Under the pieces are notes generated by a model. The model was not told the DNA's origin. It saw nothing but the letters and a program-made list of their open reading frames with translations, and did not search any database. Positions 532-7,861 of a stretch of 22,428 nucleotides of DNA are shown piece after piece. Source of the stretch: a virus. Position 1 is the first letter of the stretch; each line of letters begins with the position of its first letter. Made by a program: the position numbers and the translations under genes. Location of the stretch: positions 1 to 22,428 of IMG/VR virus record IMGVR_UViG_3300014720_000204; one strand, written 5' to 3'.

Positions 532-870
532 CTATCTCCCCGTAAAGCCAGGATCATAAAAGGCAGTGCCTTGGAGGAGATAATATTTATCTCCACTGGG
601 TTCTGTCACCATAACATCATACTGTCCCTGTTCAGTGATGCCACTTGTTACTGTCGATGTTAATGCTAGCTTAAAACTACCACTAGCCCTTACGGTCCAA
701 GATTGTACAAAATCAGCGAGCTTTGATGTGCCTAGCCTATTCCACAGTTCTGCTTCCACTGTATAACCACTCATATTTACTGGCACGCCATTGCCGCCTT
801 TATATTGCAAATCAAGCGCAAAAGTAGCGCCCTGATGAATGGTAATGTCATAACGCCCCGGATCTACCAT
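532..870 (-). CDS. Beta-rich fibre adaptor, paralogue of the protein at 3236-3577
   Basis: This 112-aa protein shares a clear pattern with the 113-aa protein at 3236-3577: YDI near the N-terminus, then Q-x-ATF-x-L, then PVN-(M/L)-SGYT near residue 35, then SGI-x-x-x-G-x-YDV and a late GD-(K/R)-YY-x-L-x-G motif. The two are ancient duplicates, diverged but aligned over their full length. The pattern resembles small Ig-like or BppU-N-like adaptor domains found before phage fibres, but I cannot assign a named family with certainty. It sits just upstream of the collagen-like gene at 301-528, as its paralogue sits upstream of the 261-aa collagen-necked protein. This suggests it seats a fibre on the tail. 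Confidence 0.7.
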   Translation of the reverse strand: MVDPGRYDITIHQGATFALDLQYKGGNGVPVNMSGYTVEAELWNRLGTSKLADFVQSWTVRASGSFKLALTSTVTSGITEQGQYDVMVTEPSGDKYYLLQGTAFYDPGFTGR

Positions 871-2447: not shown

Positions 2448-3233
2448 TCAACCACGTACTAAGCCTAAGTCTTTCAATGCTACAATCACGCCGCTCAATG
2501 CCGTAAGAACTTCTGCCGTGCTTGAGCCGCCACTGGGAATGACAATGCCGGAGGGGCACAGCACTGGTGATGCACCAAAAAAACCAGCGGAATTGCCACT
2601 AGCAAAAATAATGACGCCGCCGCTAGCCACGACATTCCCAGAAATTGTAGGAGAAACAATGGAAGGGGAATTAATGGTGGAGCTAGCTATAGTGACTCCG
2701 CTAATGGTACCTCCGCTAATGGTGCCTACGTTTGTAACAACGCCAGATAAGGTGGAGGCAAAAATAACTGCTCCGCTAATGGTGGGCGCAAGATAAGTGC
2801 CACTACTGGCCGTGCCATTGTTAATGGTTGCACCAGACAAAGTGGAAGCAAGAATTGTTGCGCCGCTAATTGAAGGTGATAAATATGTGCCGCCACTCAC
2901 GGAGGCCAAGTTTGTAATTGTACCAGAAATCGTAGTATTGCGTATTGTTCCGCCAGAGTATATGCTATCAATTAAAGAAGCATTGTTATAGGTGCCTCCA
3001 GAAATTGTTCCTTGAACAGTGGCGCCGGAAAGCGTGATGTTACGAAGAGTGAGGCCAGAAGCCGAAGAAGTCCATACGGCGTCATAATCAGTGGCACTTT
3101 GTTTAACAATAATTTGCCCAACCGTGCCGCCAGAAGGCAATGTGCTTAGCCCAATTGGTCCCTGCACGCCAGGGATGGAAAGGCCTAGGTCTACGGTTTC
3201 TCCGCTAACGACAGTAAGGGCAATGGTGCTCAT
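2448..3233 (-). CDS. Fibre-like protein with collagen-like neck and 10-residue beta repeats
   Basis: This 261-aa protein has a hydrophobic N-terminus (about residues 1-18), then a collagen-like neck (IPGVQGPIG, about 20-28), a linker containing QIIVKQSATDYDAVW, and a regular array of 10-residue units from about residue 67 to 200. Units follow the pattern (T/S)-(I/L)-SG-(G/A/T)-T. Such regular turns fit a beta-helix or beta-prism shaft. The C-terminus (LTALSGVIVALKDLGLV) could be a helical cap or trimerisation segment. It follows the 113-aa adaptor with a 2-base gap. Fibre function is inferred from repeats and position. The linker resembles segments just before the variable region in other aquatic phage fibres. 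Confidence 0.75.
   Translation of the reverse strand: MSTIALTVVSGETVDLGLSIPGVQGPIGLSTLPSGGTVGQIIVKQSATDYDAVWTSSASGLTLRNITLSGATVQGTISGGTYNNASLIDSIYSGGTIRNTTISGTITNLASVSGGTYLSPSISGATILASTLSGATINNGTASSGTYLAPTISGAVIFASTLSGVVTNVGTISGGTISGVTIASSTINSPSIVSPTISGNVVASGGVIIFASGNSAGFFGASPVLCPSGIVIPSGGSSTAEVLTALSGVIVALKDLGLVRG
2634..3035 (-). repeat. 10-residue (30-bp) beta-repeat array in the 261-aa fibre
   Basis: About 13 units of ten residues, each starting near TISG, TLSG or SISG. They are diverged at DNA level but keep the 30-bp period, with one unit extended by five residues near residue 90. The register of glycine and threonine is typical of solenoid-like shafts. Confidence 0.65.
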
Positions 3234-3235
3234 GA

Positions 3236-3577
3236 TTAATTCCTGCTACAAGTGGATTCAACTGTCATAACGCCCTTAAGCCAATAATATCTATCACCGC
3301 CGGGCTGCGTGGCACTAACATCGTATAGATAGCGCCCAGCTTCAATGCCACTGCTTGTTGTAGGGGGAAGATTTAGTTCTACTATGCCGCTGGCTGCACT
3401 AACAATGGTGGGAATGAAAGTGGCCACTTGCTGCCCCGTGCTGGCGCCGCAAATGTCACTATCAATGGTATAGCCAGAAAGATTAACGGGCGTGCCTCCA
3501 CTTTGCGTGGCTGTAAGTCGCAAACGAAAAGTGGCATTTTGCAACACCACTATGTCATAAGTGGCGGGATAAATCAT
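3236..3577 (-). CDS. Beta-rich fibre adaptor, paralogue of the protein at 532-870
   Basis: This 113-aa protein starts MIYPATYDIVVLQNATF and shares spaced motifs with the 112-aa adaptor at 532-870, including PVNLSGYT, SGI-E-x-G-x-Y and GGDRYYWLKG. The C-terminus carries VESTCSRN, whereas the paralogue ends in FYDPGFTGR. Length and pattern fit a compact Ig-like or BppU-N-like fold. It is followed two bases later by the collagen-necked fibre at 2448-3233, the same arrangement as the second copy, which suggests a conserved adaptor-plus-fibre module. Upstream, in the short gap, lies a TATAAT-like hexamer that may or may not be a promoter. Confidence 0.7.
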   Translation of the reverse strand: MIYPATYDIVVLQNATFRLRLTATQSGGTPVNLSGYTIDSDICGASTGQQVATFIPTIVSAASGIVELNLPPTTSSGIEAGRYLYDVSATQPGGDRYYWLKGVMTVESTCSRN

Positions 3578-3616: not shown

Positions 3617-3751
3617 CTATCCTTGGCCTCTTGATTTTTTTCTGCCATGAGAAGGCTTGCTATGTTGACCATCGCCTTGTTTTGTCTTCTTAGGCTTACT
3701 AATGATGATGCGCTTTGATGATGCGGCACCTTGTTTGCTACGTACGGCCAT
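3617..3751 (-). CDS. Very basic 44-aa microprotein (KPKKTKQG / KKSRGQG)
   Basis: An ATG at 3749-3751 opens a 44-codon frame ending in TAG at 3617-3619. The product begins MAVRSKQGAASSKR, then has KPKKTKQGDG, then KPSHGRKKSRGQG at its end. About one third of residues are Lys, Arg or His, with only two acidic-side residues or fewer, so the charge is strongly positive. From memory, small ORFs with KPKKTRQG-like cores and RGQG ends recur in cyanophage genomes, which supports it being real; this needs a search. It sits 18 bases after the DUF7936-like gene in a gap no other gene explains. A nucleic-acid- or capsid-binding role is only a guess from charge. No strong ribosome binding site is visible. 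Confidence 0.65.
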   Translation of the reverse strand: MAVRSKQGAASSKRIIISKPKKTKQGDGQHSKPSHGRKKSRGQG

Positions 3752-3769: not shown

Positions 3770-4078
3770 TTAACTGGTCCAGGGTATGCCAGAAGCTTTT
3801 GTTGGCTGACGTTGCTCATCAATTTGATTTTGAAGGGCAGTTTCAATGTCAGCGACTTTCTTTGCCGTGAGTTCATTTTTCACCCAACCAACAACTATCG
3901 CTTTCGTGAGAGAAGAGTATGAAATGAGATTGTTAGGGCGTTTCAGTCCAACGCTTCCATAAGCACCAGCTTGATAGGTGCCATCATTGGCGGTGATGGT
4001 GTAATGGGCAGTATAAACATAACCATCAGAGGTTTCCCTTTCAAGATTGGCAATGTCCCAAGAGATAGTGGTGGCCAT
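3770..4078 (-). CDS. DUF7936-like small phage protein, 102 aa
   Basis: The protein begins MATTISWDIANLERET and contains GYVYTAHYTITANDG, a SYSSLTKAIVVGWVKNEL segment and an end ASGIPWTS. This order (WxIxxLER, then TAHY, then a helix with VVGWVK, then IPW) matches, from memory, a small family now called DUF7936 in cyanophages and other aquatic phages. Its biochemical role is not known to me. In such phages it usually lies among structural genes. Here it follows the large fibre by a 66-base gap and precedes the basic microprotein, so it is probably a structural or assembly accessory. Confidence 0.7.
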   Translation of the reverse strand: MATTISWDIANLERETSDGYVYTAHYTITANDGTYQAGAYGSVGLKRPNNLISYSSLTKAIVVGWVKNELTAKKVADIETALQNQIDEQRQPTKASGIPWTS

Positions 4079-4144: not shown

Positions 4145-7100
4145 TTACCATGTGCTAAGTGCCGCCCTCTTCCATGTATTTGTTGTCGTGCAGACGTAGA
4201 TGTAATTTGCATCCCAGCAGATTTCACCAACGGCACCAGTAGCGCCTGCAGATGCAGGAGTACGTGCAGTACGGAGTCGCATGGTATCAGCATTCACATC
4301 AAGCAGCGTGGTAGGACTGCTGGTCCCAATGCCCACGTTGCCTGCGGAGTCGATGCGCAGGCGCTCGGTTGTTAAGTCACCAGACGGAGCACCTGATCCA
4401 CCTGGTGACGTGGCAAAGCTAATAAAACTTCCGTTATTGGCTGAAAGGTTAACAGCCCCCATATTGATGCGAGCCAAGGCATTAGCCGCTCCTCCTGTGG
4501 CAACTTGTAGAGCTTGTGATACAACGTTAGATTGCCCGCCTGTATAAGGAATATCAAATATAATCCCGTTATTTATTCCGTTACCTTTTGCAGCTATTTT
4601 GAGTTCCCCAGTGGAGTCGATGAGCAGGCGTTCGGTGCCGCCTGTCGTCACACCAACTGCATCAGCACCAGGGCTATAGATGCCTGTATTACTGTCTCCT
4701 GTAAAAGCAATAGTTGGAGCACTAACAGTACCAAGAGCGTGGTTAAAAATACCAGTAGTAACAATATTCTGACTGCCAAAATCAGGGCTAATCTTCGTAC
4801 CAGCAATGGCGGCAGAAGCATTTATATCGTCATTGACAATAGTGTCATTGACAATGTTGCTGCTTGCAATAGTGATGCCAGAAGGCAATGCTCCCGTGGC
4901 AAGCTTAGAAAGAGCAATGGCAGCAGAATTATTGATATCGGCATTGACAATAGTGTCGTCAACAATATTCGCGGAAGCAATCGTAATGGTTGTTGGAAGA
5001 GCACCAGTTGCAAGCTTAGAAAGAGCAATGGCGGCAGAAGCATTTATGTCGGCATCGACAACGCCGCTGGATAGTGCAAGTTTGCTATAGGCAATAGCAG
5101 CAGAAGCATTTATATCGGCATTGACAATAGTATCATTAGCAATCATTGTGCTAGTGACAGTGCCATTGTCGCCGGTTGTAACCACCGTGCCAGTTACGTT
5201 CGGAAGCGTAATGGTTCTATCAGCGGTGGCATCAGCACCAATTAAGCGAATTTCATTTGCATCGTCCGTCGTGCCTTCAAACTGAATGCCAATATTTGTG
5301 CCAAGCGTAATATCTCCCGTGACAGTGCCTCCCGCCTTGGGCAGCGCAGCATCAGCCAAATCATAAGCTGCTTTAACGGCAGTGGACGTAGCAGCCAGAA
5401 TGCTGCTGGTAGTGCCAGTGCTATCACTAAGCTGGACAATGCCATCGCCGCTAGTCGTAGCTGAGCGAATCGTCAACGCAGGCGTGGTAGTGCTAGTGCC
5501 GGATGCAACAGTCAATGCAGCAGTGCTGCTGGTCACTTCAGTGACAGTACCAACAGTGGGCGTGGCCCATTTAAGACCAGTAATTTCAGCACTATCAGCA
5601 GTCAGCACTTGACCATTGGTGCCAACACTACGTCGAGCTAATACCGTTGTTCCACTGGCCGCAATAATATCTCCCTTGACATAACTAGATAAATTGGTGC
5701 CGCCACGCGCTACGGCGAGAGTGCCGCTAGTGATGTTCGTTGCGTTGCGACATTCGCTACTAACTTCTTCAATGGCAGTTTGTACATTACTACTGCCAAT
5801 ATCTCCAACAGCAGCAAAGCTAACCTGTGAGGCGGCAATAGCACCAGCGCCCGCACTAACGTCAATTTCCACCCAACCAGGACTGGCGCTGTTATAAACG
5901 GAAAGAATTAAATCAGGAGGTGCCAATGTAGCGTTTGGCGCGTTACCAGTGGTGATTGTTCCCCCTGAACTAACGACTAAATAATGCTTATTGTTACCAG
6001 GCGCAGAGGCCGGCAATGCACTGCCCACAGTAAAGCCTGCTGCTGCTCCCTCAGGCGTGATACTGGCAACTTGCCCCGTGCCAGAAGGCGTAGCTGCATT
6101 GAAAGTACCAGCAAAAATAATTTGTCCCGCTGAAATGCCAATTGGCACAAAAACATTACCGTCCCACATAAAGAACGATTTGTCCAGTGGATTTAGGTGG
6201 ATTTGTCCAATAAAACTAGGCGTGGGGAAAGTTTCTCCCAGCGAAGCCGTGCTGTAGTCTGATAGTTTATCAATGGTGACGGCATTATCAGCAATGCGAT
6301 CAGTGGGCAAGGTGCCAGTTGTAATTTTAGCTGCGTCAATATTTGGCACATCAGAGGCCTCAAGCAACGCGCCCGTGCTGACATGCCCTTGCGTGTCAAC
6401 TGTTACTTTTGTATATGTGCCGGTGGTGACGCTATTGCTGTGATTTAGCGTGCCGCCATTAACAACTAAGCCAGTGCCTGGTTGGATGATGCCTTTAGTT
6501 GAAGCCGTGGCATCTGGCAAATCATTGGGAACAATGGTGCGAAAGGTGGGGGCAGCATCAGCACCAGCAGCGGGACCAAGAAATGCACGATTAGCTACTT
6601 GCGTGTCAAGAGAAGTGGTGATATTAGCAGTGTGATTATTTGGATAGGCAACGGAAAATGCAATGGGAGTGGAATCAGTGAAATTTATAACATTAACGGC
6701 CGCCTGCCTCACCCACGTGGTGCTGTCCCAAATGTATTCAACGCTGGTATTAGTGTCAAACCAATGCTGCCCTTCAAAAGCGCCGCTTCCCGCTGGTGTG
6801 CCAGCTTGTACAATAGTGGTACTATCATCAGCCATTTTGGCGGCAGTGATGGCATCATCTGCAACTTTGGCTGTTGTAATTGCATTGGTGGAAATAGCAG
6901 CAGCAGCAAGACCAGCAGCATCTACCTTGACAGTGGTAATTGCACCATCAGCAATTTTGCCGTTGGTGACTGCTGAGTTTGCCAGCTTACCGGTGGTAAC
7001 AGCAAGATCAGTAATGGCAGGTGTTGTTACAGCATCCGCGGCAAGTTTAGCGCTGGTAACTGTAGCATCAGTCAGCTTGGCACCTGGTACGGAACCATCA

Positions 7101-7861
7101 GCAAGATTGAGTTTGCCATAAGTGATGCTGGTATTGGCAATTTTGTTTACCGTTACCGCACCATCGGCAATCTTGGCTTCGGTGACAGCGGCATCAGCCA
7201 GCTTGGCGTTAGTGACGGCTAGAGTTTGGATGGCAGCGGTGTCTACGGCATCGTTTGCTAGCTCAGCAGCAGTGACCGCATTAGCAGCAATCTTGGCCGT
7301 GGTAACTGACAATGAAGCCAGTTTGTCAGTAGTGATGGCTGTATCAACAACTTTGGCTGTCGTGATGGCATTAGTGGCAATGGCAGTAGGACCAAGGCCG
7401 GCAATATCAACTTTAGCCGTGGTAATTGCATTATTGGCAATCTTGGCAGTGCTCACAGCTAGGTCTGCAATGCCAGCCGTAGGCATCACCACTTGATCAA
7501 AGGCGCTACCATTCCACACTTGCAAATTTTTGCTAGTGCTATTTACATAGCCCCTTCCTTCAAAATTATCAATGGTAGGCGCCACTGAGTCATAAGCAAT
7601 GGCACTATCATTTGCTAATTTTGCAGCAGTGATGGCATCATCAGCTAATGCGGCAGTGCCAAGTTTGGTCGCACTGGCTTGATTAAGCTTTGCTAAATTA
7701 ATGCTGCTATTGTCAGCCAAATCAGCGGCAGCTTGGAATAGATCCTTGGCCTCCACCTTTTTGGTGATACTACTACCCACGTCAACAATGGGCAGCACAT
7801 CATTAGCTGCAACATCAGCTTGACTCAGCTTTTTTAGCTGCGTAATACGTTGATCTGCCAC
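4145..7861 (-). CDS. Large tail fibre protein with decapeptide repeats, 1238 aa
   Basis: The start is GTG at 7859-7861; an in-frame TAA lies two codons upstream, and MADQRITQLKKLS with VLPIVDVG matches the N-terminal pattern I recall for phage fibres. Residues about 131-345 form a 10-residue repeat array (AITTAKVADD-like). The middle has a TVTEV...LTVASG segment and a TRTITLPN-like strand (RTITLPNVTG). A second repeat region (DINASAAIALSKLA) covers about residues 900-1025. The C-terminal part has NTGIYSPGAD, NVGIGTSSP and a terminal ICWDANYIYVC...NTWKRAALSTW, a pattern often seen at the tip of cyanophage fibres. It is probably a trimeric host-recognition fibre. No tail fibre chaperone is recognisable in the window. 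Confidence 0.85.
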   Translation of the reverse strand: MADQRITQLKKLSQADVAANDVLPIVDVGSSITKKVEAKDLFQAAADLADNSSINLAKLNQASATKLGTAALADDAITAAKLANDSAIAYDSVAPTIDNFEGRGYVNSTSKNLQVWNGSAFDQVVMPTAGIADLAVSTAKIANNAITTAKVDIAGLGPTAIATNAITTAKVVDTAITTDKLASLSVTTAKIAANAVTAAELANDAVDTAAIQTLAVTNAKLADAAVTEAKIADGAVTVNKIANTSITYGKLNLADGSVPGAKLTDATVTSAKLAADAVTTPAITDLAVTTGKLANSAVTNGKIADGAITTVKVDAAGLAAAAISTNAITTAKVADDAITAAKMADDSTTIVQAGTPAGSGAFEGQHWFDTNTSVEYIWDSTTWVRQAAVNVINFTDSTPIAFSVAYPNNHTANITTSLDTQVANRAFLGPAAGADAAPTFRTIVPNDLPDATASTKGIIQPGTGLVVNGGTLNHSNSVTTGTYTKVTVDTQGHVSTGALLEASDVPNIDAAKITTGTLPTDRIADNAVTIDKLSDYSTASLGETFPTPSFIGQIHLNPLDKSFFMWDGNVFVPIGISAGQIIFAGTFNAATPSGTGQVASITPEGAAAGFTVGSALPASAPGNNKHYLVVSSGGTITTGNAPNATLAPPDLILSVYNSASPGWVEIDVSAGAGAIAASQVSFAAVGDIGSSNVQTAIEEVSSECRNATNITSGTLAVARGGTNLSSYVKGDIIAASGTTVLARRSVGTNGQVLTADSAEITGLKWATPTVGTVTEVTSSTAALTVASGTSTTTPALTIRSATTSGDGIVQLSDSTGTTSSILAATSTAVKAAYDLADAALPKAGGTVTGDITLGTNIGIQFEGTTDDANEIRLIGADATADRTITLPNVTGTVVTTGDNGTVTSTMIANDTIVNADINASAAIAYSKLALSSGVVDADINASAAIALSKLATGALPTTITIASANIVDDTIVNADINNSAAIALSKLATGALPSGITIASSNIVNDTIVNDDINASAAIAGTKISPDFGSQNIVTTGIFNHALGTVSAPTIAFTGDSNTGIYSPGADAVGVTTGGTERLLIDSTGELKIAAKGNGINNGIIFDIPYTGGQSNVVSQALQVATGGAANALARINMGAVNLSANNGSFISFATSPGGSGAPSGDLTTERLRIDSAGNVGIGTSSPTTLLDVNADTMRLRTARTPASAGATGAVGEICWDANYIYVCTTTNTWKRAALSTW
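4785..5165 (-). repeat. Second repeat region of the large fibre (DINASAAIALSKLA units)
   Basis: Four related units carry the core ADIN-(A/N)-SAAIA-x-(S/T)-K. Three of them also share DDTIVNAD or NDTIVND just before the core, and two share a following LATGALP-x-x-ITIAS stretch. DNA is similar enough between units that recombination could change unit number. Confidence 0.7.
6827..7471 (-). repeat. Decapeptide (30-bp) repeat array in the large fibre
   Basis: Roughly 21 successive 10-residue units of the type (I/L)A-x-x-A-(I/V)-T-x-A-K run from about residue 131 to 345 of the fibre. Two units are altered to VDIAGLGPTA and VDAAGLAAAA, at different places in the array, possibly marking hinges. The strict ten-residue register suggests a fibrous stalk. 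Confidence 0.85.

Follow-up and report, generated by a model that had tools for sequence, protein, structure and literature searches.

The window, which here denotes the whole virus record of 22,428 bases, carries on its minus strand a 44-amino acid open reading frame that is a real gene and belongs to the phrog_516 family. This family occurs almost exclusively in phages that infect Synechococcus and Prochlorococcus, and its product may be a disordered, strongly cationic, trans-acting peptide with two invariant blocks that would fold on nucleic acid or a ribonucleoprotein, a reading to which we assign a probability of just under one half. phrog_516 is already catalogued, without a function, so that the window protein adds a member, and we found no study of the phrog_516 protein in the literature. 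Added here are the evidence of selection, a single copy whose address shifts across the tail types, the invariance of the C-terminal end, and a probable Pelagibacter branch.

The 44-aa gene and its neighbours

Judging from its tape-measure, tail, neck, and fibre genes, the window virus is a long-tailed phage, most likely siphovirus-like. The following features frame the gene under study, and other genes in the window encode tail proteins and a neck protein.

3236..3577, minus strand: downstream neighbour (113 aa) assigned to phrog_1084; L-shaped tail fibre assembly (phrog_3304, LtfC-like) gave a weaker match
3617..3751, minus strand: 44-aa cationic microprotein gene, phrog_516 member (translation; PHROG match; family and selection analysis)
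3620..3631, minus strand: C-terminal RGQG, residues 41-44 (invariant in alignment A4)
3668..3694, minus strand: core block PKKTKQGDG, residues 20-28 (alignment A4, column frequencies)
3770..4078, minus strand: upstream neighbour, 102 aa, DUF7936 / phrog_7802, unknown function (family matches)
4145..7861, minus strand: tail fibre protein, 1238 aa
13818-18281: tape-measure protein

The microprotein frame runs from an ATG (3751-3749) to a TAG (3619-3617), as the first-pass annotation had it without giving the strand, but fills the gap between two genes somewhat less exactly than was also claimed: it occupies 135 of the 192 nt that separate the upstream gene (3770-4078) from the downstream gene (3236-3577), leaving 18 nt free after the stop of the former and 39 nt before the latter. 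No Shine-Dalgarno-like sequence was visible upstream of its ATG; such a site was present in 58 of 161 family members. The product, MAVRSKQGAASSKRIIISKPKKTKQGDGQHSKPSHGRKKSRGQG, is indeed rich in Lys, Arg, and His, with a net charge of +12 and two His. Within its core block P20, K21, Q25, G26, and G28 are invariant in alignment A4, and it ends in RGQG-stop without the usual final K/R, a bare end found in 4 of 160 members.

The fibre-like surroundings described earlier were borne out by the 1238-aa tail fibre protein and the DUF7936 protein upstream, and by the weak LtfC-like match and a repetitive 261-aa protein downstream. The latter (2448-3233, minus strand) contains repeated SGATI/SGGTI-like units, has no Pfam match, and is probably a beta-structured fibre protein; a weak NCBIfam match that would have made it a secreted effector was put down to the repetitive sequence and dropped. 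Proteins of phrog_1084 with the weaker match to L-shaped tail fibre assembly occurred twice in the window (532-870 and 3236-3577, minus strand), approximately 2.4 kb apart, and this pair is likely a duplication. In the locus with the closest relative of the window DUF7936 gene (86% identical; L005), another gene lies after base 2800, without the microprotein there.

Family, conservation, and hosts

The match to phrog_516 (E 3.7e-7) aligned microprotein residues 3-44 with profile positions 2-47 of 48. PHROGs was alone among the libraries searched in giving a match: Pfam and NCBIfam held no relatives, and no PDB chain was similar at E ≤ 10. Relatives came from IMG/VR loci adjoining a DUF7936 gene and from two family searches, each with at least 550 confirmed places; collected among the matches listed, they comprised 164 distinct proteins from 209 loci. 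Two nearly invariant blocks, PKxTxQGxG and a C-terminal K..RGQG(K/R), are the hallmarks of the family, so that the motifs named in the first-pass annotation (KPKK-T-x-QG and RGQG) proved true on the basis of the alignment and its column frequencies, and the window member has both. The core P, K, Q, G, and G and the C-terminal K, R, G, Q, and G were kept in 97-100% of members, RGQG itself being near-invariant (99%), while a final K or R followed in most of 160 members and is thus frequent, not universal. Net charge ranged from +9 to +15 in members of 37-50 aa (n = 160). A possible internal repeat of the two blocks is not claimed (shuffle test, median p 0.12).

When 182 distinct coding sequences were aligned by codon, dN/dS was below 1 in all 87 independent pairs, with a median of approximately 0.26 over all 3,327 usable pairs and values of 0.07-0.10 for close pairs. 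Both the homologue search and the purifying-selection check proposed at the outset therefore came out in favour of a conserved, tiny cationic cyanophage protein. The same homology, the 164 relatives, and purifying selection exclude a chance open frame, small as the frame is and lacking a Shine-Dalgarno-like site in the window copy, and we consider such an origin practically out of the question.

The family is common to myo-, sipho-, and podo-type cyanophages, making dependence on a particular tail unlikely. Among T4-like cyanophages of Synechococcus and Prochlorococcus, a single query matched 454 records, of which 24 are Prochlorococcus by name; T7-like carriers include S-CBP1 to S-CBP4, S-SRP01, S-TIP28, and DSL-LC07, and further carriers are S-CBS4 and S-EIV1. 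No match was found in 14 control genomes or in plasmids. Bacterial genome bins, in a search bounded by the peptide patterns used, yielded four matches only, all on short metagenome-assembled contigs with viral-looking gene neighbourhoods and none of which is labelled cyanobacterial. Partial matches from Klebsiella and Caulobacter (E 2-5) were treated as chance. The description of the gene as unannotated holds for P-HM1, S-CBP2, S-CBP3, and DSL-LC07, but many genomes list a hypothetical protein, for example gp96 of Syn9 (MATRSKSLSGGKLIESKPKKTRQGMGQHTKLSATSRNGAKKRYRGQGK). The window member agrees with phrog_516 in length and composition and carries both motifs, and differs in its shorter linker (typical of podo- and sipho-type members), its lack of the final K/R, and its genomic address.

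A probable divergent branch, to which the link is moderate, was seen in Autographiviridae that infect Pelagibacter (HTVC021P and others), where the open reading frames lie just upstream of the terminase genes and are mostly unannotated. The HTVC021P sequence scored 12.5 bits against the family HMM, and reciprocal searches met Synechococcus phages only at E 8; basic character is kept in this branch and RGQG in part. In HTVC021P (L082 2465-2596), the unannotated basic frame ends in KKKYRGQGR and shares bases, read in a different frame, with the beginning of the annotated gene that immediately precedes DNA maturase B, and related frames occupy the same place in other pelagiphages.

Genomic address and copy number

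The tail-fibre address, which the first-pass annotation had treated as meaningful, did not prove to be a property of the family. T4-like members are placed between a gene for a PAAR protein or a glycosyltransferase-like gene on one side and ferredoxin or gp25/gp6 on the other, and small genes between gp46 and gp25 form a hot spot of variable genes (Sullivan et al. 2010, PMC3037559). The T7-like gene either is flanked by those for DNA polymerase and exonuclease, in some cases overlapping the start of the latter, or immediately precedes the SSB gene. Other phages carry it after DUF7936 or fibre-region genes and before small membrane-like proteins or an endolysin, with the DUF7936 gene immediately upstream in 31 loci; a lysozyme adjoins it in S-EIV1. 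Although most members from IMG/VR are surrounded by late genes for tail, fibre, and lysis, no steady linkage to the tail module was found across the family, whose members, as a rule one per genome, have as neighbours genes for baseplate, ferredoxin, DNA polymerase/exonuclease, SSB, lysis, or terminase. Near the microprotein gene, two other small basic proteins were observed: a lysine-rich protein (99 aa, phrog_7595, unknown function) upstream in some S-EIV1-like contexts (L160, L086), and a separate 48-aa basic frame (MPFSSEKQMRYMYSQNPEIAKRWSKEAKAAGK...) downstream in L045, L046, L052, L054, and L056, approximately 220-368 bases past the DUF7936 match.

Ten records of 36-47 kb, chosen for carrying DUF7936, formed a less biased sample for copy number. 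Seven held exactly one copy (G004-G007, G013, G014, and S-CBP3), which in five of the seven was far from DUF7936. The other three (G008, S-B28, and S-H1) had no match, and since S-B28 and S-H1 are complete genomes, phrog_516 is not indispensable. Fourteen T4-like records searched whole, mostly picked as family carriers (Syn9 being the exception), usually had one copy, with two in S-B43 and one strong plus one marginal match in S-SKS1. Within 300 nt upstream, the T4-type late promoter (NATAAATA; PMC2984593) was found in none of 82 T4-like loci versus 9% of random pieces, and the gene therefore seems to be co-transcribed.

Possible roles of the peptide

The product is predicted to be intrinsically disordered: AlphaFold2 run with 29 relatives gave no secondary structure, a mean pLDDT of 60.7, and a pTM of 0.16. 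Composition, predicted disorder, and the lack of domain or structure relatives suit a peptide that becomes ordered on its target; nucleic acid or a ribonucleoprotein is suggested by its charge, and a specific target by its invariant C-terminus. In the reading we favour, the disordered cationic peptide would act in trans, its basic Gln-Gly blocks, PKxTxQGxG and K..RGQG-K/R-COOH, folding onto phage DNA, RNA, or the host ribosome in a manner somewhat like that of ribosomal protein tails. Such basic tails and small rRNA-binding ribosomal proteins (bTHX, the N-terminus of bL27) are short, Lys/Arg/Gly-rich, and disordered when free; they provide a functional analogy only, as no ribosomal protein relation was found in PDB (E ≤ 10), Pfam, or NCBIfam. 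That the peptide binds DNA, RNA, or an acidic virion surface, as first suggested from the sequence, is plausible. We infer a nucleic-acid target and action in the cell or head rather than the tail. However, the near-invariant residues exceed what a generic charge neutralizer needs, and the target could equally be a protein.

A peptide with such a protein target is the main rival. It would serve host takeover, the invariant RGQG(K/R) C-terminus docking into a pocket on a single conserved host protein such as RNA polymerase or a nuclease, and we regard it as unlikely, though less so than the other alternatives. The invariant end itself accords with this idea, as does the restriction of phrog_516 to phages of few aquatic hosts, and the T4-like gene is grouped with ferredoxin and glycosyltransferase-like auxiliary genes. 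The cyanopodovirus gene, moreover, sits between DNA polymerase and exonuclease, corresponding to the T7 interval (gene 5-6) that holds gp5.5 and gp5.9. The likeness proposed to those two T7 proteins is one of gene position; gp5.9 is acidic and gp5.5 is larger than the phrog_516 product. Against docking on a host protein stand the composition, which is typical of nucleic-acid binders, and the Pelagibacter branch, which is basic yet keeps RGQG in part only.

A minor virion component, either of the tail, fibre, or baseplate (on an acidic surface) or internal to the head, appears improbable. Fibre genes adjoin the microprotein in the window, and the T4-like gene lies between PAAR and gp25/gp6 genes, but T7-like members adjoin replication genes and the address is tied to no tail gene. 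Two observations speak against a fibre or baseplate part: the single copy shifts from module to module, and it recurs beside replication genes in phages whose tails differ, which would not be expected of such a part. In Syn9, gp96 also bears the label hypothetical, with several genes close by marked as virion structural, a weak argument, given that K/R-rich tryptic peptides are easily missed. A lysis-associated cationic peptide is more improbable still: small membrane-like proteins or endolysins lie downstream in many freshwater-type loci and a lysozyme beside the S-EIV1 member, but the sequence lacks any hydrophobic or amphipathic stretch, and in many members the lysis genes are distant.

The gene is overlooked owing to its small size, its frequent lack of annotation, and the fact that only PHROGs matched it among the libraries searched. 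Its sharply conserved residues make its function directly accessible to point mutation. A gene of approximately 45 codons that occurs once per genome in very different cyanophages and moves between modules gives a good indication of a common need in the infection of marine and freshwater cyanobacteria. In a broader and rather doubtful version, phrog_516 would be a takeover microprotein of cyanophages of three tail types and of pelagiphages, exchanged between phage lineages that are otherwise unrelated and binding the host ribosome or transcription machinery via both blocks; if true, infection of the ocean's most abundant phototrophs would generally require it.
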